Source: Limnohabitans sp. Jir72 (GTDB taxonomy: Bacteria > Pseudomonadota > Gammaproteobacteria > Burkholderiales > Burkholderiaceae_C). Taken from it: a stretch of DNA of 64,000 nt. Location: positions 62,001 through 126,000 of the forward strand of contig NZ_NESC01000002.1 in assembly GCF_003063575.1 (NCBI RefSeq), read 5' to 3'. A program made the position numbers and the translations under genes. The notes under the pieces were generated by a model. That model saw only the letters and a list, made by a program, of their open reading frames with translations, made no database searches and had not been told where the DNA came from. This document shows positions 35,257 through 62,900 of the stretch, piece after piece. How positions within the stretch are numbered: position 1 is the first letter of the stretch; each line of letters starts with the position of its first letter.

Positions 35257-36447
35257 ATGGCCGAGACCGTCAACGTCTCCAGCTCCCCAGGGGCCAACTA
35301 CAGCTGGACCTCTGGTACGTTCACCTGGGGCAGCGCAACGGCAGGCAAGAACTGGTCAACGGCTTACCCGGCCGTCTACGTGCTGAGCGTGGCTACGGAC
35401 CTGAGCTTTGCAGAGCTCGCCAAGAAGCTGGGTATCAAGCGAAGTTCCGAGACCCTGGCCTTGGCAGAAAAGCCCAGCCGGGCGCTCACTCTCAGCAAGT
35501 TCGAGACCCTGAGCTTCGTGGAGACCTACACCGACCTGATCGCCTTTGTGCTGCGCTTCGTGGAGTCGCTGACCTTCTCGGAGAAATACGCACGCACAGG
35601 CACCAAGGCCGTGTTCGAGGTGTTTCAAGTGGCCGAAGGTCTGGCCAGGCAACTGGCCTTGCGCAAGTACGAAACGCTGGCGCTGGCTGAGACATACACG
35701 GACCTGATTGCCTACATCCTGCGGGTATCGGAGAGCCTGAGCTTTGTAGAAAAGCCTTCCAAGGCCGTGACCAAGCCTCAAAGGGAGAGCTTTGGGATGA
35801 GTGATGCGCTGGCCCGCTCACATGTCAAGCGAGTAGCGGAAGCCTTCTTGTTTGCCGAGGGCTTGGGCAGAACAGTTGCATACCGACTGTCCATCAGTGA
35901 GGGCTTTGCGATTGCAGAGGCACTGCGCCGGGCCCAGACCTTGAAGCTCAGTGAAGCCCTGAACCTTGCCGAACAGTATCGTCGCCGGGCCAATGGAGTG
36001 ATCAGCGACATGATCGTTGCCAGCACCGAAATCACCGATCAGGACTTCATGGACATCCTGGAGTCCGGACATCCCCCGGGGTACACCAACTTTAGGGATT
36101 TCATTCAGGGCGACTACACCTACCAGCGGGCGCTTTTCAGGGCGATTCTGACTTCCAGCAATGCCGACCGTGGCTACATCGATGGCCTGAGGGTGACGGT
36201 GGACGTTCCCGATGTCTTTGACCGGGGCACGGCGCAGGTTGTCACAGCCGCCAATGGCGTGACCGTGGTCTTCACCAGGCAGTTTCGTGTGGCACCGGAA
36301 GTCACGTTGACCTTCAAAGGCGGCACCACCATCGCCATTCCCCGAATCCTCGGTTCAGTCTCTACCACTGGCTTCACCGCCATTCTTGAAAACACCTCTG
36401 GAACCCGCGTAACGGGAGCCATTTCTTGGGTTGCCCAAGGGTATTGA
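35257..36447 (+). CDS. Tail fibre-like protein with ~18-residue repeats
   Basis: 396 residues. Residues 64-240 contain about ten copies of an ~18-residue unit with the core E-(T/S)-L-x-(L/F)-x-E; one long pair (82-118 and 138-174) is nearly duplicated. The last 130 residues form a separate domain with FTRQFRVAPEVTLTFKGG, similar to H-type lectin-like ends of tail proteins. It is probably an elongated fibre arm with a carbohydrate-binding-like tip. Confidence 0.7.
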   Translation: MAETVNVSSSPGANYSWTSGTFTWGSATAGKNWSTAYPAVYVLSVATDLSFAELAKKLGIKRSSETLALAEKPSRALTLSKFETLSFVETYTDLIAFVLRFVESLTFSEKYARTGTKAVFEVFQVAEGLARQLALRKYETLALAETYTDLIAYILRVSESLSFVEKPSKAVTKPQRESFGMSDALARSHVKRVAEAFLFAEGLGRTVAYRLSISEGFAIAEALRRAQTLKLSEALNLAEQYRRRANGVISDMIVASTEITDQDFMDILESGHPPGYTNFRDFIQGDYTYQRALFRAILTSSNADRGYIDGLRVTVDVPDVFDRGTAQVVTAANGVTVVFTRQFRVAPEVTLTFKGGTTIAIPRILGSVSTTGFTAILENTSGTRVTGAISWVAQGY

Positions 36448-36458
36448 TAGGGTACTAA

Positions 36459-37469
36459 ATGCAAAACTACACCGAAATTCCTTCCACTACGACGCTCTCG
36501 GACTCGCTGTCGCAGATCCTGAACAATGACAAGACGGCGTTGTCACTCTCCAGTGGAACGGCATTCCCAACTGTGAATCTGCAGCTGGGTATGCCGTGTT
36601 TCAGGACCGATGAGCAAAAGCTCTACATGCTCACCGTGGTCAGTCCCGTCACGTGGAAGATGGTCATTGACCTGTCGGCCACGGTGGGAAAGGTGGCCAA
36701 TGCAGATCTGCTGGATGGCATCGACTCCACTGGATTTGCACTGAGTGGTCACAACCACGATGCCGCATATGCGGCGCTGGGGCACAACCACAACACGGCA
36801 TACCTGGGCATCACGGCGAAAGCCGCCGACGCTGACAAGCTCGATGGTTATGACTCCACAGCCTTTGTGCGTTCAGTCAATGGCAACGCGCCGGATGCCA
36901 CTGGCAATGCCACCGTACCGATCGATTTGTCGAGTCGATTGGCCAAAGCCGGTGACACGATGACAGGTCATCTGTACATGGGTACTGGTGCAGTGATTTA
37001 TTCGTCACAGTCTGGTGCGGCGGACAACGCTCGCAACACCGGCTATCGCATGAACGATGGTCAGGACATCGGCGAGATGGGACGCAGCAACCAGTACTAC
37101 GACGATCTGGCGGGCAACTGCAACGGCATCTTGCCAACCGGCAACTGCGCAAGCAATACGTACTGGAAGCCCTCCAATACCAACTGGTGGACCTGGGGTC
37201 TGGGGTTTAACTACTGTGCCAACTCGGCCCAATACGACGGCGCTGGAGGGACGACCTACGCCTACAACGCTGTGCCCAGCACGGGCTACAACTACGACGC
37301 CTACTACCTGGCCCAAGACGAAATTGGCGGGGGCGAGTATCACCGCTGGTACCGAGCCTGCAATTGCAACTGCAACTGTGGCAGCTACACCAACTGCAAC
37401 TGCGGCAACACGGCCTTCAACTGCCGAACAAATTGCAATTGCAACTGTGCCTGCTGTGGTTGCTGCTGA
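36459..37469 (+). CDS. Tail fibre with Asn/Cys-rich C-terminus (candidate modification substrate)
   Basis: 336 residues. N-terminal fibre-like segment with GHNH motifs at 97-100 and 108-111 (SGHNHDAAY, then LGHNHNTAY), resembling iron-binding HxH in fibre trimers. From residue 301 to the end there are 14 Cys and 10 Asn in 36 residues, with repeated C-N-C; four further Cys lie at 47, 221, 230 and 253. No signal peptide. Immediately downstream is a run of oxygenase and radical SAM genes. A metallothionein-like metal-binding tail or a thioether-modified tail are the main readings. Confidence 0.8.
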   Translation: MQNYTEIPSTTTLSDSLSQILNNDKTALSLSSGTAFPTVNLQLGMPCFRTDEQKLYMLTVVSPVTWKMVIDLSATVGKVANADLLDGIDSTGFALSGHNHDAAYAALGHNHNTAYLGITAKAADADKLDGYDSTAFVRSVNGNAPDATGNATVPIDLSSRLAKAGDTMTGHLYMGTGAVIYSSQSGAADNARNTGYRMNDGQDIGEMGRSNQYYDDLAGNCNGILPTGNCASNTYWKPSNTNWWTWGLGFNYCANSAQYDGAGGTTYAYNAVPSTGYNYDAYYLAQDEIGGGEYHRWYRACNCNCNCGSYTNCNCGNTAFNCRTNCNCNCACCGCC

Positions 37470-37480
37470 AGGAGATGCAC

Positions 37481-38287
37481 ATGAAAGTCTTTCTTGTGCG
37501 CGCTGGCAAGCTCTCGACCACACTGGACTACGCCATCCATCTCCTGATCGACAAGACCACCGAGCAGGTGCGCATGCGTTTTGGTTTGCGTCACAGGCCT
37601 GATTCGGGACTGACCCCAGACTTTGAAGTCAATGGCAACTCCTACCAGGTGGTGGCAGAGCAGTTTTTCACATATCGCGAACTGCGCAACAACCGAGGCT
37701 GGTCCGATCGCCAGTCCTTCATGACGGGTTACCGCTGGGCAGAAAAACGCCTCATCGACCCCTTACCGCTATACATCTACACACTGTCCACGCGGTTCAC
37801 CGCGCCTGAGGCTGCCGGGCATGTCTGGAACGGCAACTTTCTGACCGGCTTCAATGTGCCCTTTGCTGACAGCCCGTTTGACGAGTGCTTTGTCACAGTG
37901 AACCTGCATCCGACGCTCGGTGGCTGCTTGGTCGAAGGGGTCGATCCTTTGGATGTGGAGCAGACCGATTACCAGTCCTCGGCTCAGGTACGTGAAATGC
38001 AGTTCCCGGACCTGCGGGTCACAGCCCCAACCTCTGTGAAAGCAGGCGATCCGGCCGTGTTTACGGTCCACATGCTCGATGGCATTGGTGACGTGAGCAC
38101 CCGCGATGCGGAAGTGTTCCTCGAAAGCGTCAATGGCTACCTGCCCATCAGTCGTCGCCAGACACAGGGTGGCACCACAACCGCAACGGTCCTGACCACG
38201 GGACTTGCAGCAGGCGACACAGTGCGCCTCAAGGCTGGCTTCAAGTTCTACCCCGGCTGCGCCGACGCGCAGGTGACGCTTTCATGA
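37481..38287 (+). CDS. Fibre accessory protein with C-terminal Ig-like domain
   Basis: 268 residues from the ATG at 37481, which has AAGGAG 6 nt upstream. N-terminal 170 residues are unrecognised and include two Cys and many aromatics; residues 185-268 fit a bacterial Ig-like sandwich (VTAPTSVKAGDPAVFTV, later TGLAAGDTVRLKAG). It ends in an ATGA overlap with the first oxygenase gene, so it belongs to the coupled block. It is likely structural, but could be a second substrate or chaperone of the fibre. Confidence 0.65.
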   Translation: MKVFLVRAGKLSTTLDYAIHLLIDKTTEQVRMRFGLRHRPDSGLTPDFEVNGNSYQVVAEQFFTYRELRNNRGWSDRQSFMTGYRWAEKRLIDPLPLYIYTLSTRFTAPEAAGHVWNGNFLTGFNVPFADSPFDECFVTVNLHPTLGGCLVEGVDPLDVEQTDYQSSAQVREMQFPDLRVTAPTSVKAGDPAVFTVHMLDGIGDVSTRDAEVFLESVNGYLPISRRQTQGGTTTATVLTTGLAAGDTVRLKAGFKFYPGCADAQVTLS

Positions 38288-38883
38288 TCCGCGAACTGTT
38301 TTCTGCAAGGATCTTCCAGGGATACCTGCACCTCGGTGATGTACAGCGCGATCAAATGATCGAAGTTGCCATGGGATTTCATGAAAGGCTCAATCGGGAT
38401 GGACAACCCTGGGCGCGAAAGAGCCGAGAGTCGCTCATCGGAAACACCACTTGGCCTGATGCCTTGGACCCACTCATGGTTCAGGTTCATGCGGCCATCG
38501 AGCAAACTTTTAGCTGCGTTCCTGTCTGGCAAACAGCCCGTGAGGTGATCACCCAGCCTGGGCAATTCATCCCGCTGCATGCTGAAGACACGGACCTGTC
38601 GGCCATTTACTGGGTAGATGGCGATGCCAAACCTGATCCGGCGCGCCAGGACTATTCCGGGGCCTTTGTGTTGATCAACCCCAGCGGAGCCTACGGCAGC
38701 CGCAGGTTGCCATGGGAAGGCTGGCGCTCGGAAATCATCCATCCCAAGCCCGGGATGCTGCTGGTGTTCCCAAGCTATCTGGCCCACCACTCTTACCCCT
38801 ACAACGGCACGCGAGCGAGCGTGGAAATCCATTTCGAGTTCCGTGTTGAAGCCATCTCGGGAGAACACCATGCGCATAGTTGA
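38284..38883 (+). CDS. 2OG-Fe(II) oxygenase-like protein 1
   Basis: 199 residues. Iron ligands fit H99-x-E101 in FIPLHAEDTDLS, distal H168/H169 in SYLAHHSYPY, and a 2-oxoglutarate-binding Arg177. This is the putative 2OG-Fe(II) oxygenase group frequent in cyanophages and marine phages (PF13759-like). Such enzymes hydroxylate protein or small-molecule substrates. It overlaps the genes on both sides, so it is translated with them. Confidence 0.8.
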   Translation: MIRELFSARIFQGYLHLGDVQRDQMIEVAMGFHERLNRDGQPWARKSRESLIGNTTWPDALDPLMVQVHAAIEQTFSCVPVWQTAREVITQPGQFIPLHAEDTDLSAIYWVDGDAKPDPARQDYSGAFVLINPSGAYGSRRLPWEGWRSEIIHPKPGMLLVFPSYLAHHSYPYNGTRASVEIHFEFRVEAISGEHHAHS

Positions 38884-39472
38884 CGACCTGATTGCACCGG
38901 AGCTGACCTCCGAGTGTCGGCAGTGGTTGCTGAGCCAGACCCTGGTGTTCGGCTGGAAGGCCCATGCTGAAGCCCCAGGTGTGTTCTGGCATCGCAACTT
39001 CGTGCTGCCGGGCACCCACAAGCACCACTACGACCCGGGGGCCTGGCGTCCGGAGCTGACGTTCGATGCGTTTGTGGCCCGAGGTGGTCCCATGGCGATG
39101 GCAGCGCAGCAAGTCAAGAAGCGCTTTTTCCCTGACAGCTCGATCACACGGCTATGGGTCAATGTTCAGGCCTTCGGCGACGAGGCATCGTTGCACAGGG
39201 ACTTCCCGGCCGAATTCCTGCAAACGGCCAGATCCGTGATCTGGTATCCCGTGGCCGAGTGGGATCCGGGCTGGGGCGGGGACCTGGTCGTGCTCGATGC
39301 ACAGGGCGAGATCGAGTCAGCCGTGCTGGTCAAACCAAATCGGATGGTGGAGCTCAATGGCTGCATGGCGCATGCCGCGCGTCCCATGTCCCGTTACTGC
39401 AACGCTCTGCGCATCGCGGTGGCTTTTGGTTCGGAAGTGGGTGCCGGGTCGAATTCGGGAGGTGTAACTTGA
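38870..39472 (+). CDS. 2OG-Fe(II) oxygenase-like protein 2
   Basis: 200 residues from the ATG at 38870 (GGGAG upstream). Canonical facial triad H109-R-D111, distal H168 (CMAHAARP) and Arg181 (ALRIAVAF). The sequence is clearly different from its two neighbours, so this is not a simple duplication. The start overlaps oxygenase 1 by 14 bp. Prolyl-4-hydroxylase-like fold is expected. Confidence 0.85.
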   Translation: MRIVDDLIAPELTSECRQWLLSQTLVFGWKAHAEAPGVFWHRNFVLPGTHKHHYDPGAWRPELTFDAFVARGGPMAMAAQQVKKRFFPDSSITRLWVNVQAFGDEASLHRDFPAEFLQTARSVIWYPVAEWDPGWGGDLVVLDAQGEIESAVLVKPNRMVELNGCMAHAARPMSRYCNALRIAVAFGSEVGAGSNSGGVT

Positions 39473-40146
39473 TCGACTATCTCTGGCCCACTCCGGTTCT
39501 GAAAGACACCGCGCCCTGGACGCCTGACGAGATGGAAGCTCTTAGGCGCTTCACCGTCGAGCGGTTTCATAACCACAAGGCTAACCCGCCCGAGCACGGG
39601 TTGCCGGATGTGGATGTGCGTCTGCGCGTGCAGCTGAACCTGTTTCATGCCGAGCATGAATCGCATGCGCCCCCGGTCTGGCATCGGTTTCGGCGCTGGG
39701 TGGAAGACACCTACCGCGACTACCTGCTGGGAGCGCATGGGGTTCGCAATGCCAAGGATCTCAGGATCGAGGCGCGCTGCATCTCTGTGCACTACCAGCC
39801 TGGCATGCGCGCACAGCCTCATTACCACCACACCTGTGACCATGTGCTGTGCCTGTACCTGGATTGTGGTCAGGAGCGAAGTCCGCCCAACGCACGCGAC
39901 TGGACCGTTGGTGACGGTGAACTCATCTTGCAAGACCCCCGCCCGATGGCGGGGTTTCCTTTTTGGGAAAAGGTTCACTACGTCGAGACCGTACCAGGCC
40001 TGGTTGTCCTGCACCCATCGCGCCTTTGGCACGAAACCAATCCCTTCAACGCCAAGGGGGAGCGAACTCTTCTGGTGGTCACCCTGCGGGTGGCCTCACA
40101 CAACTATGTTGACCTTTACACCGAGCTCAAAGGAGAGACCCCGTGA
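39469..40146 (+). CDS. 2OG-Fe(II) oxygenase-like protein 3 (TTG start)
   Basis: 225 residues. The start is a TTG (39469) in a TTGA overlap, with GGGAGGTG at 39458-39465 as ribosome site; no ATG gives a better fit. Ligand candidates are H118/H120 or H121 and D124 in the PHYHHTCDH stretch, distal H188 (RLWHETNPF) and R199. It is again distinct from the two others. The stop overlaps the small gene (GTGA). Confidence 0.75.
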   Translation: MIDYLWPTPVLKDTAPWTPDEMEALRRFTVERFHNHKANPPEHGLPDVDVRLRVQLNLFHAEHESHAPPVWHRFRRWVEDTYRDYLLGAHGVRNAKDLRIEARCISVHYQPGMRAQPHYHHTCDHVLCLYLDCGQERSPPNARDWTVGDGELILQDPRPMAGFPFWEKVHYVETVPGLVVLHPSRLWHETNPFNAKGERTLLVVTLRVASHNYVDLYTELKGETP

Positions 40147-40352
40147 ATCTGAATCTACAAACCCGGCCTGGCTATGACGTCGATGTGGTCCAGCTCGATG
40201 ACAGCAATCTGCGAATGACAGTGCTCGTGACCAATCCTGATGGAAAAGTCTCCGGTCGCCATGTTTTTAACCTCAAGACGATGGCTGGCGCAGATCCTGC
40301 GCAGGTCTGTCGTGAGGCCTATCCAATCGCATTCGAGGAGCTCCTGCCATGA
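40143..40352 (+). CDS. 69-aa protein between oxygenases and radical SAM enzyme
   Basis: 69 residues from a GTG overlapping the third oxygenase stop; its own stop overlaps the radical SAM ATG. A beta-rich N-terminal half (YDVDVVQLDDSNLRMTVLV) with one Cys. Size and position recall RiPP recognition elements or small chaperones that deliver a substrate to radical SAM enzymes; no motif proves this. It is unlikely to be a Cys-rich substrate itself. Confidence 0.6.
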   Translation: MNLNLQTRPGYDVDVVQLDDSNLRMTVLVTNPDGKVSGRHVFNLKTMAGADPAQVCREAYPIAFEELLP

Positions 40353-41767
40353 AATTCACACTCACTCTCAATGGCAAGAATGGTTTTGAACGACAGGCTA
40401 TCTATGACCCCGAAGATTCCAGTCTGATCTGGGCCGACAGCGGTGAGTCTTTGCCTCTGCCACAGGCGTTTCCCAAACAAGACATGCAGTGGCAGCCTTT
40501 CTGGCATGTACATCACCCGAACAACCCGGCAGGCAAATCGAGAGCCATACGGCACCTGAAACTGCAGTTGGGCCTCAAGTGCAATTACGCCTGCCAGTAC
40601 TGCTCGCAAGCGCACCAGCCCCATGACATTGACGGCCACCCTGAGGACGTCTTGCCGTTCATGCAGCAGCTTGAGGGTTGGTTTGCTGGTGGCGAGGACG
40701 GACAAGGCGATGGCGTCAAGATCGAGTTCTGGGGTGGCGAGCCCTTTGTCTACTGGAAACTGCTCAAGCCGCTGGGTGAAGCCGTGAAGGCGCGGTACCC
40801 CAATGCCCAGTTGTCCATCGTCACTAATGGTTCGCTCTTCGATGATGAGAAGCTTGCCTGGGTGGAGAAGCTGGACATTGGAATTGGCCTGTCACATGAC
40901 GGGCCTGCACAGTCCTACCGTGGACCAGATCCGCTAGACGATCCCGAAATGCTGACTCAGATCAAGCGCTGGGTGTCCCGGCGCATGCCACTGGACCGAA
41001 TGAGCTTCAATACCGTACTGCACCGTCACAACCAGTCCCTCAAGGCAGTGCGCCAGTTCTTCGCTGAAAAGCTCGATCTGCCTGTGCGGGCTATTGTGCT
41101 GGCCACCGAGGAAGTGATGCTGCCATATGACCAGGGCGGCATGTCTTTGGCACTGAAGGGTACAGACCACGACCGCTACCTCCATCAGGTGTTCTGGGAA
41201 CTGGTCACCGGCTCAGGCATGGCTGTGGGCACGATGCGCGACAAGGTCGATGAATTCATGCGCGCGCAGGCCCAGTGCAGGCCACTGGCTGCACTGGGAC
41301 AGAAGTGCGGCATGGACCGGGATGACTCGATTGCCGTGGACATGAAAGGCAACGTCACGACCTGCCAGAACATGAGCGCATCGACCCATCACAAGATCGG
41401 GCATGTCGATCAGTTCGATGCCATTGCGCTTGATACGGCCTACCACTTCAGTACCCGCAGTCAATGCCCGCGTTGCCCGGTGGTTCAACTCTGCAAGGGG
41501 GCCTGCCTGTTCCTTGAGGGAGAGTACTGGGATGCTGCTTGTGACAACGCGTTCTCACATAACTTGGCTGTCATGGCAGCCGCGCTTTATTACCAGACAC
41601 AAGGTTTGATCCTCACGCGCATCGAGTCTGATGCGATTCGGTATGACTCTGTCTCATGGGTCGATGTGGTCAAGCTCGCGTTTGTCGATTCTGGCGGGGA
41701 TATGGGGGCTGTTGTGCCCCTAAAGCAAGAGCGCAGACCGTTTCCCGTTGCAGTTGTCGCCGCCTGA
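40349..41767 (+). CDS. Radical SAM enzyme with SPASM domain
   Basis: 472 residues. The radical SAM cluster motif is C78-NYA-C82-QY-C85, followed by the SAM-binding GGEP (129-132). The C-terminal SPASM pattern is complete: C320-x13-G-x4-C339, then C373-x2-C376-x5-C382-x3-C386 and C398, enough for two auxiliary [4Fe-4S] clusters. SPASM enzymes modify ribosomal peptides and sulfatases, commonly forming thioether or C-C links. It overlaps the 69-aa gene; a terminator follows at 41.8 kb. Substrate is unknown; the neighbouring Cys-rich fibre is the best candidate. Confidence 0.92.
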   Translation: MKFTLTLNGKNGFERQAIYDPEDSSLIWADSGESLPLPQAFPKQDMQWQPFWHVHHPNNPAGKSRAIRHLKLQLGLKCNYACQYCSQAHQPHDIDGHPEDVLPFMQQLEGWFAGGEDGQGDGVKIEFWGGEPFVYWKLLKPLGEAVKARYPNAQLSIVTNGSLFDDEKLAWVEKLDIGIGLSHDGPAQSYRGPDPLDDPEMLTQIKRWVSRRMPLDRMSFNTVLHRHNQSLKAVRQFFAEKLDLPVRAIVLATEEVMLPYDQGGMSLALKGTDHDRYLHQVFWELVTGSGMAVGTMRDKVDEFMRAQAQCRPLAALGQKCGMDRDDSIAVDMKGNVTTCQNMSASTHHKIGHVDQFDAIALDTAYHFSTRSQCPRCPVVQLCKGACLFLEGEYWDAACDNAFSHNLAVMAAALYYQTQGLILTRIESDAIRYDSVSWVDVVKLAFVDSGGDMGAVVPLKQERRPFPVAVVAA

Positions 41768-44216: not shown

Positions 44217-44332
44217 TCGGTGGTGCTTGTGGCCCTTAATGATTGAGCAAGTACCACCCCTTTCCAACCGCGAAACGAGGGACGCGGAATCTACATCTCC
44301 CCTCAACTAACAACACCAAGCTGGAGCGTCCT

Positions 44333-46687
44333 ATGAAAACAAAGACAGGTCTCGAAAACGAATACGGCCAAAACGTTTCCCTCAAATCTGTTCATCTCGA
44401 GGGCAAACTTGAAGGCCTCCTGCTCACCATGCTCGTGAAGCAGCGGTACCTGAATGATTCAGATGAGACGATCGAAGCCAGCTACACCTTTCCGGCGGGA
44501 TGGGGTGCAAACCTGATGGGCTTCGGTGTGGAGCTCAATGGCAAACGGATGCAGGCAGTAGCTCTTGCCAAGAAGAAGGCGGAAAAGAAGTACGAAGAGG
44601 CGATCGAAAGCGGTGACACCCCTGTCATGCTGGAGAAGTCTCCTCTTGGCCTGTACACAGCTGACCTGGGGAATCTCAAGCCGGGCGAAGAAGCAGTGAT
44701 CAACATCGAGTATGCCCAGCTACTCAGGTTTGAAAAAGGGCGGGTGCGCATTACTGTCCCCACCGTGATCGGAGAGCGGTATGGTGACGAGGTGTCTGAT
44801 GGACATATTGCTCCGCACCAGACGGTGGACACGGACTTACTGGTCGAGTACCCATTCACGGCCACTCTCGACATCCTTGGTCAAATGGCACAAGGCAATA
44901 TTGCCTGCCCGAGTCATCAAGTTGATGTGGAGCAAATTGAGGGAGGAACTCGCCTGCGACTTGCAAAGGGTGGCTTGCTTGATCGCGACTTCATTGTCAC
45001 CGTAGAAGAGCTCAAGGGTGAGTCGTTCGTTTCGGCAAGTGAAGATGATGGGGCGTATGCAGTTGTTGCGAGCTTCTGCCCGAAGCTGCAAGAAAAAGAG
45101 CCGACGCCTCTGGGGCTCAAGATCCTTGTCGACTGCTCTGGTTCGATGCAGGGTGACAGCATTGAACAAGCGCAAGAAGCGATGCATGAGCTGATCCTCA
45201 GGCTCACTGAGCAAGACATGGTTTCCTACAGCAAGTTCGGCTCGAAGGTGATTCACACATCTAATCAACTCGAAAAATGCACACCGCGCTACATCAAGAA
45301 CGTGCTGGCTAAAGCTGTTCACGACACAGCGGCAGACTTGGGCGGTACGGAGCTGAATCAGGCCCTGACATCGACGTTCAAAATCAGCTTCACTAAGGCC
45401 TACACAGAAGGCTGTGATCTTCTCCTGATTACCGATGGCGACGTTTGGGAAATCGAAGAAATCGTCAAGCAAGCCAAGATCAGCAACCATCGAATCTTTG
45501 CCATTGGGGTAGGTAGTGCGCCAGCCGAAAGCTTGCTGAAGGATCTGGCCGAGCAAACAGGTGGCGCATGCGAGTTGGTTACCCCCTCTGAGAGCATCTC
45601 GGAAGCGGTGCTGCGGATGACTCAGAGAATCCGATCTGCTCGGACGAGCTCGATTGCCATTCACTGGGAAGGCGAAGTCCTCTGGCAATCCAAGCTCCCC
45701 AAGCAGGTTTTTTCAGATGAGACGATTCATGTTCATGCGCGACTCAAGAAAAAGCCAACGGCAACTCCGACGTTGCGCTGGACGGTTGAAAACGTCTTGA
45801 ATGAAGAGTCCGCACCTTCAATCGACTGGAATTCAACAGGTGCATTGCCTCGCATGGTTGCGGGGGCTGAAATTACCAGCATCACAGATGAGAAGGCTGC
45901 CGAAGAACTTGCTCTGAAATATCAACTCGCCAGCAAGTACACCAACCTGCTTCTTGTCCATGTTCGCGAGGAAGAAGAGAAGGCGGAAGGGCTGCCGAAG
46001 CTGCAAAAGATCAAGCAAATGAGCGCCGCAGGCTGGGGAGGTTTGGGTACTGTTGAGCAGCCACGCGTGCTGTACTCAATCTCTGCTTCACGAATTCTCC
46101 GAACCGGAACAGATTCGGTTGCGTTTTCTGCCTCTTCAGCTCCTGCTGTCTGGCGTTCCAGTCGAACCGCTGCGGCTTCACGAATTAGCGATTCGTCAAT
46201 TCACGACATAGATGATTTTGAGATTCCTGCCTTCCTTCGAAAGCAAGATGACTCTTCAACATCCCCGATTGTTTTTGATGAGGACAGCTTCACCCCTGAG
46301 GAAATGCTTGAGAAGTTCAATGAGCTTTCACTCACAACCACCAAATTCAGCGATATCACTTGGGAGCTCATGGAGCGAGTATCCAAAGGGTACGTCTGGA
46401 AGGTGTTGTGTGAGATGGCATCGTCCGAAGACGAGATGGATGTCTATTGGGCGTTTCTCTTGCGCTGGCTCTCTAACGAGGTGGCTGGAATCGTTTCGCT
46501 GACAAGGCATTCACAGCGACTGCTTAACGCTCAGATTGCCAATATTGAAGCCTCGTTGGTTCAAGATGTTGAAGAACAACTTGCGCAAGCGTTCCCGACC
46601 ATCTCCAAGTCCTCATGGGGTCAAACTCCTGCGACTGAGAGGCGCTCATTGCTGTCCCGCTTCAAGAAGTTGATGACCGGGGGTTGA
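44333..46687 (+). CDS. VIT domain / von Willebrand A protein
   Basis: 784 residues from the ATG at 44333 with GGAG 8 nt upstream. N-terminal VIT domain (about 10-130, with LPAGWG-like and KPGEEAVINIEY features). The vWA domain shows an intact MIDAS: D267-x-S269-x-S271, T339 and D368, so it can bind a divalent metal and a partner. The last 200 residues are unrecognised and Ser/Glu-rich, with no signal peptide. A cytosolic role with a MerR-type regulator is suggested; no MoxR ATPase is present. Confidence 0.85.
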   Translation: MKTKTGLENEYGQNVSLKSVHLEGKLEGLLLTMLVKQRYLNDSDETIEASYTFPAGWGANLMGFGVELNGKRMQAVALAKKKAEKKYEEAIESGDTPVMLEKSPLGLYTADLGNLKPGEEAVINIEYAQLLRFEKGRVRITVPTVIGERYGDEVSDGHIAPHQTVDTDLLVEYPFTATLDILGQMAQGNIACPSHQVDVEQIEGGTRLRLAKGGLLDRDFIVTVEELKGESFVSASEDDGAYAVVASFCPKLQEKEPTPLGLKILVDCSGSMQGDSIEQAQEAMHELILRLTEQDMVSYSKFGSKVIHTSNQLEKCTPRYIKNVLAKAVHDTAADLGGTELNQALTSTFKISFTKAYTEGCDLLLITDGDVWEIEEIVKQAKISNHRIFAIGVGSAPAESLLKDLAEQTGGACELVTPSESISEAVLRMTQRIRSARTSSIAIHWEGEVLWQSKLPKQVFSDETIHVHARLKKKPTATPTLRWTVENVLNEESAPSIDWNSTGALPRMVAGAEITSITDEKAAEELALKYQLASKYTNLLLVHVREEEEKAEGLPKLQKIKQMSAAGWGGLGTVEQPRVLYSISASRILRTGTDSVAFSASSAPAVWRSSRTAAASRISDSSIHDIDDFEIPAFLRKQDDSSTSPIVFDEDSFTPEEMLEKFNELSLTTTKFSDITWELMERVSKGYVWKVLCEMASSEDEMDVYWAFLLRWLSNEVAGIVSLTRHSQRLLNAQIANIEASLVQDVEEQLAQAFPTISKSSWGQTPATERRSLLSRFKKLMTGG

Positions 46688-59971: not shown

Positions 59972-62900
59972 TCATTCCACGACGAATCGGAGCTTGGATG
60001 CGTCCTTGCCCTTGGAGCGTTCAGTCAGGAACGACTCGAAGCGCTTGCGCAAATCTTCTGGAGAAGCTGGGGAGCCGCCATGCAGTAGCGCCATACGGAT
60101 GTCATCTCCAGAGACTTTGACCTTCTCAAGGCCAGAGAGAGCCTCCTGAATGGCGCTGACAAACTCCGGCGGGATCGGGTCTGGCAGCCTCTTGGATGCG
60201 ATGAACCTCTGGATCAAGTCACGTGCGGCAGCTTTCAGAAGGTCAAAGTTGGCCTGGATGATCGGATCGTCTAGGTTGTCCAGCAGCGTCTGCTGCCATC
60301 CGTCCAGCAGTTTGTCCAGTTCGTCGTCGAGTTGCTTGAGCACGTTGGCTGCCGGCAGGAAATCTCCTTGTTCGTTGGCAGGACGGAAACTGCAGTGTGG
60401 GCAGTATGGACTGGCCGACAACTCCGATTCGACCAGCGACGCGCAACTCTTGAGCTTGTCTAATTTCTCCTCGAAGGACGTCAGCTGGGCTGTGTTCATC
60501 ATTTCGATACTCGCTAGCGCACGCATCGAAACCAATCGGCTGTCCTTGCGCAGTGCTGACTTAGTCTTGTCTTCTGCAACGCCGAGCCGGGCCTTGCTAT
60601 GCTGGGCCACGTAAGCGGTCAGATAATCCTTCTTGAGCTGTTCGAGCGTCTGACGGTACTCGGCAGCATGCTGCGCGCTCCGGTCATTTGCGAGCTTGTC
60701 GAGGACTGATTTCCGAGCCGCTTGGGCCTTTTGGACCCAGGGATGGTCGCTAGTGAGGACCATTTCAGCCTGGGACAGGTACGACGCAGTGGTGCCCAAC
60801 TCGGCGATCAGTTCTTGCAGCTTCTCGACTGCAGACAGAACCTCAAGATTCTTTTTCTGTGCATCGATGTCGTCCGATCCGATCCGCAGGTTCTTGAGTT
60901 TGCCGACGGTGTTGTAAGGACTCAGCCCTTCGGTGAACGTCTTCAGCGCTTCTAATCGTTTGCGCCAGTCGGCGATCTCGTCCTCGGTCAGGAGGGGCTT
61001 GCCCCAGAACGTCAGCTTGCCTTGCAGATCCGTGCCGGCAGTCAGCACGCGGCTAACGAGTTCCGAGACAGAGTCGAGTAGTTGCTTGACAGGCTCTTCA
61101 GACCCTTGGGTGGCCAACTGTGCGAGCCCAGGCGACAGGCCAAGCAGTTCGAACAGCGAACGAAGGACGGCGACGTTGATTTCCTTGGGTGCTTCAACGT
61201 GTTTGAACTGCTTAAGGTCTTCAAGGTTGCGCTCGGCCAGCAGGGTGAGCTTGCCGGAGTCGATCTTGTCCCCAGTGATGGCGAGAACGATGTCGCCGGA
61301 GTAAATCAGGCCTCCGAGAACAGTGACGAGCAGGTCGGGTTCGAGACGGAACTTGATCGGATGGAAGTATTCGACGTCCGTCTGTCCGTTAAGCAGTTCG
61401 CTGCGGTTCAGGACCTGCCCGTGGCCCTTGGTTTTGAGGCGACTCAGAACCTCCTGGGCATATCGAGAGCGCCCGGCGTCGACGCGATCGCCGTCGAGCA
61501 TTTCCAGTGCATCGAGGATGGCGTTTGCGTCCTTGGTGCGAGCGCCACCAGCGAGCATCTTGAGCGCACTGCCCACGAGTTGCTTACGGTTGGCTTCAGT
61601 GACCAGCGTTGAGAATGTTGGGTACTCCGGTGCCAAGTCCGCAAAGCGCTGGTTGAAAGCGATGCCCGAGACTACATTGACGATGTCCCGGAAGTTGGCG
61701 CGTTCGTCGGCACCCAGGCGCAAGCGATCGCGTAGGTTGACGCCCTTTGCCCAGTCCTGAAGAGTCTTGGTCTTGCCTTGGTAAGTGACCTCGAACGCCG
61801 TCATCTGCTTTTCCTGGAGCCACTTACTCATGTCACGCAGCGCGTCCTTGGCCTTATCCAGGTAGACGCCTTTGGCGCTACCGCTGGCAGTCGATGCGAG
61901 GTCTTGTGCTGCGGCGTAGTACGCCAGGTGACGACGGATGGCGTCATCGAGTCCCTTTAGGCGAAAGAAGACTTCGTCAGACTTGCTCTCGTCACGGAAG
62001 CGCGGTGGCTCGAAAGGCTGTATGAAGTAGACGTAGAAGTCGCGCTCGGGTTGTGCAGTGGGGCGATCGTTTGGTGCCCCGAAAAACAGGTAGCCATCCC
62101 GTTCAACACGACGATCCTGCCACTCGATCTGGTATTGCCAGATCTGGTGGCCTGTCACGTAGGTGCTGTCGTCAGTGCGTTCCATGAGCTGCTTGACCGC
62201 TCCGTAGTAAGCACGGTCAAGTGCATCGTCGGACAGTGCCTCGGCACGCTTTTCGATCTGGGCGTCGTAGTCGACGTCTTTCTTGAGGTCGAGGTAGTAC
62301 TGCTCAGTATCCGGCGCCTTGGAGATAAATTGGCCATTCACCGTTTTCACCACCTCACGCAGCGTTGTCTGGACCGCAGTCAGCAGGTCATCGGCAGGCT
62401 CTCCACCCATGTCTTCAATGCCCGGCTGGTACAAGCAAAGCGTGTCACGCAGTTCGGTCGCAGTGGGGCCGACCGGCACATAGATATCGCCACCTGTGGT
62501 TAGTCGCTGTACTGACAGACCAGCAATCACACGCTGAGCCATCGCCTTGTAGGCTGGCCGTGTGAAGGCCTTCTGGATGCGCTCAGTCAGGACCTCTGAA
62601 ACCTTCAGAACAGGACCGATGTTGGGGTCGGACCGCAGCACGGAGTTCGATGTGACAGTCTCCCAGAATTTGTCGTAGCCGATAAGCCCTGGCCGATCCT
62701 CCGGCACGTCTGTGTTCAGGATCGCCTGGATCTGGTCGCGCAGTGTGACCAGCGCTCCTCGCTTTTCCGTGAAAATCAGACGTTCGAAAGTACCGATGTA
62801 CTCGGGGTGGACCGGGAACAGGCGCACGTATTCGTCCATGCGCTCGTTCATCGTGCTGTAGAACTTGGCGAACTTGGTGAGGTAATTCCGGATTTTGTTT

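Follow-up and report, generated by a model that had tools for sequence, protein, structure and literature searches.

The DNA analysed here, 64,000 nucleotides (nt) of contig NZ_NESC01000002.1 of Limnohabitans sp. Jir72 (positions 62,001 to 126,000, referred to as the window), carries a lambda-like siphophage prophage, in which a seven-gene cassette begins with a predicted tail-fibre protein ending in alternating Cys residues and closes with a radical SAM/SPASM enzyme. TerL, the portal, the head protease, the major head protein, the tape measure and J are all encoded ahead of the cassette, and a phrog_1024 protein (function unknown in PHROG) and an endolysin are encoded 3' of it; neither an Rfam nor a tRNA scan of the window gave a match. 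The initial annotation of this stretch had described the gene set, a Cys-rich fibre end and a series of overlapping junctions from 38284 to 40352. Coordinates and domains were rechecked and confirmed, the overlaps being 4, 14, 4, 4, and 4 nt.

The fibre protein contains 18 Cys, 14 of them within its last 36 residues (...RACNCNCNCGSYTNCNCGNTAFNCRTNCNCNCACCGCC); the probability of at least 14 Cys in 36 residues, at 2% Cys, is 4e-15. Pfam gave no family for this protein, and its best PHROG match, to a tail-fibre family, is weak (E 0.003). It is predicted to be a tail fibre from its position in the tail module and from an N-terminal domain common to proteins encoded behind J in isolated phages: the related proteins of Achromobacter phages JWF and 2-1, whose genes come second after the J/hub gene, share 37.4% identity with it over residues 1-174 (JWF) and 50.5% over residues 1-97 (2-1). 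Across all 45 contigs of the genome (3.69 Mb), DNA coding for CNCNC was found three times, always in the fibre gene. Chance or low complexity as the origin of the tail was considered and ruled out, as there is no other CNCNC-coding gene in the genome and the off-frame, opposite-strand and downstream controls described below were empty.

The enzyme belongs to the radical SAM superfamily (PF04055 Radical_SAM, 30.4 bits, cut-off 29.5) and carries a SPASM domain (NCBIfam TIGR04085, 34.6 bits, cut-off 27) whose seven Cys are invariant. Its family is the phage radical SAM proteins of phrog_1802 (185.3 bits, E 4.4e-54), to which PHROG gives a domain name and no function. Besides its own genome, a close relative (>480 bits) is present in four of 35 genomes of the same genus (G014, G021, G027, and G035), a patchy pattern as expected for a prophage gene, and a 96%-identical enzyme is found in a bin labelled Burkholderiales (L231).

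Table 1. Features of the fibre-enzyme cassette, in window positions (aa, amino acids; Ig, immunoglobulin; 2OG, 2-oxoglutarate).
Feature	Positions	Strand	Basis
Tail-fibre protein (predicted; 336 aa), encoded third after J	36459..37469	+	position; related proteins of Achromobacter phages JWF and 2-1
Conserved fibre N-terminal domain	36459..36680	+	alignment of relatives
Alternating-Cys C-terminal tail, residues 301-336, CNCNCNCGSYTNCNCGNTAFNCRTNCNCNCACCGCC	37359..37466	+	sequence; conserved partner of radical SAM enzyme
Protein with C-terminal Ig-like domain, 268 aa	37481..38287	+	AlphaFold2, Foldseek
2OG-Fe(II) oxygenase-like 1 (2OG-1; PF13759, phrog_81)	38284..38883	+	HxE...H...R residues
2OG-Fe(II) oxygenase-like 2 (2OG-2; PF13640, phrog_274)	38870..39472	+	HxD...H...R residues
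2OG-Fe(II) oxygenase-like 3 (2OG-3; PF13759, phrog_81), TTG start	39469..40146	+	HxH...H...R residues
69-aa protein, GTG start	40143..40352	+	sequence
Radical SAM/SPASM enzyme, 472 aa	40349..41767	+	phrog_1802, PF04055, TIGR04085
Radical SAM cluster motif CX3CX2C: C78, C82, C85	40580..40603	+	invariant, 34 aligned sequences including window
SPASM cysteines C320, C339, C373, C376, C382, C386, C398	41306..41542	+	invariant, 34 aligned sequences

Loci found through the enzyme comprise 29 viral loci, two isolated-phage records, and 80 each from 581 viral and 108 genome relatives. Together with the loci found through the tail pattern, they make up 217 loci in 102 clusters (80% identity), and 77 clusters of the enzyme-first set have at least 3 kb of upstream sequence. 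Under a strict rule, a tail was counted when at least four alternating Cys stood close to the end, or ahead of a Hint-like or S74-like motif, in a same-strand open reading frame (ORF) of 90 aa or more that lies no further than 7 kb upstream. Such a tail is present in 59/77 clusters (49 near the end; two before an S74-like motif; eight before a Hint-like motif, a count that rests on a short motif because most Hint candidates miss the Pfam cut-off). The same rule found none on the opposite strand (0/77) and none downstream on either strand (0/66). An earlier count of 69/88 had taken in clusters found through the tail pattern, and 59/77 repeats it on enzyme-first loci only; a looser rule requiring three alternating Cys gave 78/88, but also 14/88 on the opposite strand, and is not relied on. 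These loci come from viral contigs and from genomes labelled, among others, Comamonadaceae, Roseobacteraceae, and Rhodospirillaceae, and tail-linked members occur in both halves of a tree of the 102 enzymes. Among 50,697 phage records, the only isolates with close relatives are Achromobacter phages JWF and 2-1.

The reverse search started from the tail. Scanning viral contigs for CNCNCNC-coding DNA yielded at least 120 stretches, 117 of them at new loci. In 54 of the new loci the motif closes an ORF of 70 aa or more, and 40 of the 54 have the enzyme (threshold 100 bits) anywhere in the stored stretch. Where at least 3 kb of downstream sequence was available (35 ORFs), the enzyme follows on the same strand in 34, at distances ranging from 4 nt to 7 kb, and the sole exception (L132) is a chance frame by its look. 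The 35 ORFs represent 26 distinct tails, 25 of which have the enzyme; a few of the 34 enzymes are distant, at 122-167 bits (L039, L044, L110, L120, and L142). The same pattern in short ORFs (0/23) or outside ORFs (0/32) was never accompanied by the enzyme anywhere in the locus (0/55 in total), and the eight matches that are internal or otherwise placed include one with the enzyme (L052). As a background rate, such endings occur in 4 of 1974 ORFs from 120 viral loci with an unrelated pattern, two of the four being that pattern itself. The co-occurrence of fibre tail and enzyme that the initial annotation had proposed to look for is thus found from either end across distantly related viral and bacterial-genome loci, in 59/77 clusters starting from the enzyme and 34/35 ORFs starting from the tail. 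Because the linkage holds in both search directions, we consider that the radical SAM enzyme very probably acts on the fibre tail, as far as gene content can tell.

A third search used the fibre N-terminal domain and covered 80 of 129 relatives; the requirement for a tail was less strict here, a terminal run of three alternating Cys or six Cys among the final 40 residues being enough. Every complete fibre that carries this domain and has 3.5 kb or more of sequence downstream (51/51) comes with both tail and enzyme. Another 14 have both with shorter downstream sequence, eight have the tail in a stretch that ends before any enzyme, six ORFs are cut, and the remaining one (L463) lacks a Cys tail. 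This search shows no tailed fibre without the enzyme, yet it offers almost no contrast.

Several loci vary the arrangement. The order is reversed in L052, where a CNC-bearing protein (L052:44-943, minus strand) lies just downstream of the enzyme (L052:970-2433, minus strand). In L021, L022, L203, and L237, a YCSYCSYC run with a different Cys spacing stands ahead of the CNC part, with a related enzyme alongside. On the minus strand of a 363-kb contig (L359), a 563-aa ORF ends in CGCTCTCTCTCTCNCAHSKCAKWG, and no enzyme of the family lies in the stored stretch. A scan for CKCKCKC returned nearly all chance matches, except two with long CK repeats (L376 and L419), neither of which has the enzyme within the stored stretch. 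L044 encodes a 79-aa protein (L044:11423-11662, minus strand) that ends in CNCNCNCNC plus seven residues and stands beside tail-fibre-like parts, followed by four radical SAM profile matches (L044:3051-10408, minus strand; one of 167 bits, three of about 48); L120 is similar, and the two loci may represent another form of the system, one with several enzymes.

The tailed proteins of the relatives range from about 90 to several hundred residues, and the repeat is not always at the encoded C-terminus. In JWF, a Hom_end_hint domain (47.5 bits, cut-off 32.1) starts on the final Cys of the repeat (residue 308), and in L025 and L029, Peptidase_S74 (44.4 and 50.6 bits, cut-off 22) starts two residues past the repeat. 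Hint and peptidase-S74 families cleave themselves off their partners, so the repeat would be the mature C-terminus in all three designs, by analogy with these families. Four other loci (L209, L212, L215, and L140) encode three paralogues in a row, about 90-170 aa long and all CNC-tailed, with one enzyme downstream, which fits a three-chain tip.

Between the fibre and the enzyme, the cassette of the window encodes five further proteins. The 2OG-FeII_Oxy_5 profile (PF13759) matches 2OG-1 and 2OG-3 above its cut-off of 27 (30.5 and 30.3 bits, respectively), and 2OG-FeII_Oxy_3 (PF13640) matches 2OG-2 at 26 bits, one bit under its cut-off of 27. Pfam gave no family for the Ig protein, which was modelled with AlphaFold2 at a predicted local distance difference test score (pLDDT) of 94.0 and has a run of strands at its end. 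Its matches to solved structures are weak (E 3e-4 to 1e-3) and involve intimin domains and the phage Chi neck protein; those in a viral structure library include seven near full-length matches to phage proteins without a stated function (TM 0.62-0.79 by the Ig protein's own length). By iterative profiles, relatives of the Ig protein are present in 66/88 clusters and any 2OG enzyme in 40/88; the figures for enzyme-first clusters, taking the representative of each, are 56/77 and 36/77. The 69-aa protein, with relatives in 5/102 enzyme clusters by single-sequence search, is probably not part of the core. In minimal loci, nothing stands between the fibre and the radical SAM enzyme. The suggestion that the cassette acts on the fibre is strongly supported for the radical SAM enzyme, through its two-way linkage. 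As a functional unit the full cassette was rejected on the counts for the 2OG genes and the 69-aa protein. The minimal pair is the fibre tail and the radical SAM enzyme, which the Ig protein accompanies in most cases, and the 2OG enzymes are optional.

Two other proteins of the window lie outside the cassette. A neighbouring 396-aa protein (35257-36447) has a weak C-terminal match to H-type lectin (18.3 bits, cut-off 24), and an 814-aa protein (44243-46687) has a VIT/VWA-type look by eye.

Among the structures listed, those closest to the enzyme are mostly of covalent modifiers of peptides or proteins, and the nearest is CteB (PDB 5WGG/5WHY), a radical SAM/SPASM maturase that forms thioethers in a Cys-rich SCIFF peptide. 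The substrate of CteB is a short, leader-bearing peptide, whereas the neighbour of the cassette enzyme is a 336-aa phage fibre; the latter likewise differs from a ribosomally synthesized and post-translationally modified peptide (RiPP), which has a short precursor with a leader and a cleaved core. The profile of SCIFF maturases (TIGR03974) scores 36.5 bits, against a cut-off of 425. TigE (PDB 8VPO), to our knowledge, has substrate repeats without alternating Cys. The PapB/ranthipeptide maturase profile (NF047865) covers enzyme residues 68-387 at 58.7 bits, below its cut-off of 340. PapB-type maturases are described as carrying out thioether chemistry on Cys (PMC9413430), which resembles the reaction proposed here; however, PapB couples Cys to Asp or Glu, whereas the neighbour residue in the fibre tail is mostly Asn.

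In phages, radical SAM cassettes are reported as additions in the HRC region of pelagimyophages (PMC7029224), which we read as a host-recognition cluster, and 12 radical SAM genes were counted in a T4-like genome (PMC5332604). The passages of these reports that deal with the genes name no substrate and no Cys-rich fibre, and we found no description in the open-access literature of a phage fibre as the target of a radical SAM enzyme.

We propose, with a probability of about 0.6, that the enzyme modifies the Cys-x-Cys repeat before assembly, most probably by forming thioethers, and so gives a rigid, cross-linked fibre tip. Fibre and enzyme would be made from one operon-like run of genes, and the enzyme would work on the C-terminal repeat either ahead of trimer formation or in the course of it, probably joining Cys sulfurs to neighbouring carbons. 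That this bond is a thioether has, by analogy with known maturases, an even or slightly better chance. Where present, Hint or S74 domains would cover the end until cleavage. Three fibre chains would then bring their repeats together, with alternate residues probably facing the same way along the strand, and the outcome would be a compact, protease-resistant receptor-binding tip. The 2OG enzymes may be optional hydroxylases of the same fibre, and for the Ig protein a role in the tip or in presentation is our guess.

Several observations weigh against this proposal. A strict tail is missing in 18/77 clusters, and the initial annotation had pointed to enzyme genes without a Cys-rich fibre as the pattern that would speak against a link; shorter CxCxC tails are present in eight of the 18 (L196, L203, L286, L211, L200, L246, L205, and L297), other Cys-rich ends in two (L290 and L199), and L252 has no tail, but its cluster mates L223, L250, and L251 do. 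This leaves 7/77 clusters with no tail seen (L242, L269, L287, L294, L301, L302, and L303), all on bacterial-genome contigs; the surroundings of L242 and L269 look non-phage, and L302 retains an Ig-profile match. Conversely, L463 has the fibre N-terminal domain with an S74 chaperone end and no Cys tail. As to the self-cleaving designs, the Pfam cut-off is passed by one of five Hint candidates, with three scoring below it and L182 giving no match. The acceptor, if there is one, is not a fixed residue: between-Cys residues, taken from the longest repeat per cluster in 86 clusters (stray repeats may be included), are N at 250, A at 70, D at 44, and K at 40 of 445 positions. Asn precedes the first Cys in 76/86 clusters and is the first spacer in 78/86, and later spacers vary, so that the argument from NxxC motifs in the initial annotation is weakened and Asn-specific chemistry was rejected as a rule. 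No NCBIfam equivalog cut-off was reached by the enzyme among 25 of 42 families, and a fold shared with CteB does not show that the reaction is the same. For CteB itself, the account of its open site describes the role of that site, in its own words, as unsettled (PMC6231123).

Two kinds of tailless locus deserve description in their own right. The Variovorax/Ramlibacter enzyme relatives in L294, L301, and L303 adjoin relatives of one nitroreductase-YcaO protein and one ATP-grasp-like protein (L303:4391-9302), with a small 69-aa ORF in one or two of these loci (L303 and L301); by their look, they are possibly peptide-biosynthesis clusters and an outgroup of the family. In the Sulfuricella-labelled L269 (7347-17331), the enzyme relative lies upstream of an ORF of more than 2200 residues, possibly a non-phage surface-protein substrate.

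The strongest alternative, which we nevertheless regard as unlikely, is that the three-chain Cys-x-Cys tails hold a column of metal ions or iron-sulfur clusters at the tip of the fibre, with the enzyme only preparing the site or acting as a maturation factor. The tip of the T4 long fibre holds iron through HxH motifs, and HNH motifs also occur in the shaft of the window fibre; in parallel strands every other residue points to the same side, so three chains would form layers of three Cys, which the four loci with three CNC-tailed paralogues also suit. Metal binding in itself, however, does not explain the constant SPASM neighbour, and the closest solved structures listed point mostly to covalent modification instead.

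It is less probable still that the 2OG enzymes are the main actors, for example in Asn beta-hydroxylation, and the radical SAM step is secondary. The window does place three 2OG-like genes with facial-triad-like residues between fibre and enzyme, but fewer than half of the enzyme-first clusters have such a gene, and the minimal loci dispense with any gene between the two partners. Oxidation of the tail Cys to formylglycine, as by anaerobic sulfatase-maturating enzymes (anSMEs), which would produce a run of aldehydes bonding host-surface amines, is improbable: the enzyme scores 42.8 bits with the anSME profile TIGR03942 (cut-off 349.45), alignment finds in it no counterpart of the extra SPASM Cys that anSMEs carry between the C320 and C339 positions, and the tail does not contain CxPxR, the sulfatase motif. 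Least probable is another substrate, such as a host peptide or superinfection factor, with the enzyme near fibres because accessory genes collect there; the seven clusters without a tail, including the three with YcaO and ATP-grasp-like neighbours, would suit it, but gene position by itself would not couple the enzyme, in either search direction, to a single rare type of fibre end, nor keep the tail at the C-terminus or ahead of a Hint-like or S74-like stretch.

Extending the covalent cross-linking proposal beyond the window, we tentatively suggest, at somewhat less than even odds, a widespread phage class in which a SPASM enzyme staples an alternating-Cys strand into a cross-linked tip, with Hint or S74 domains unveiling some of these tips. 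The maturation of phage attachment fibres is generally put down to folding, chaperones, self-cleavage, and metal binding, and we know of no earlier case in which an enzyme matures such a viral fibre covalently. While the enzyme class is known, the substrate class would be new, so that the novelty lies in the kind of system and holds only if the modification is real; a cultivable test system is available in Achromobacter phages JWF and 2-1. If true, covalent enzymatic tailoring would be added to the part of the fibre that touches the host, and the reaction carried out on a CxCxC polymer could be a new one for this enzyme class. It would also give a function to phrog_1802, so far named by domain only, and may explain the radical SAM genes that published accounts note in host-recognition regions.

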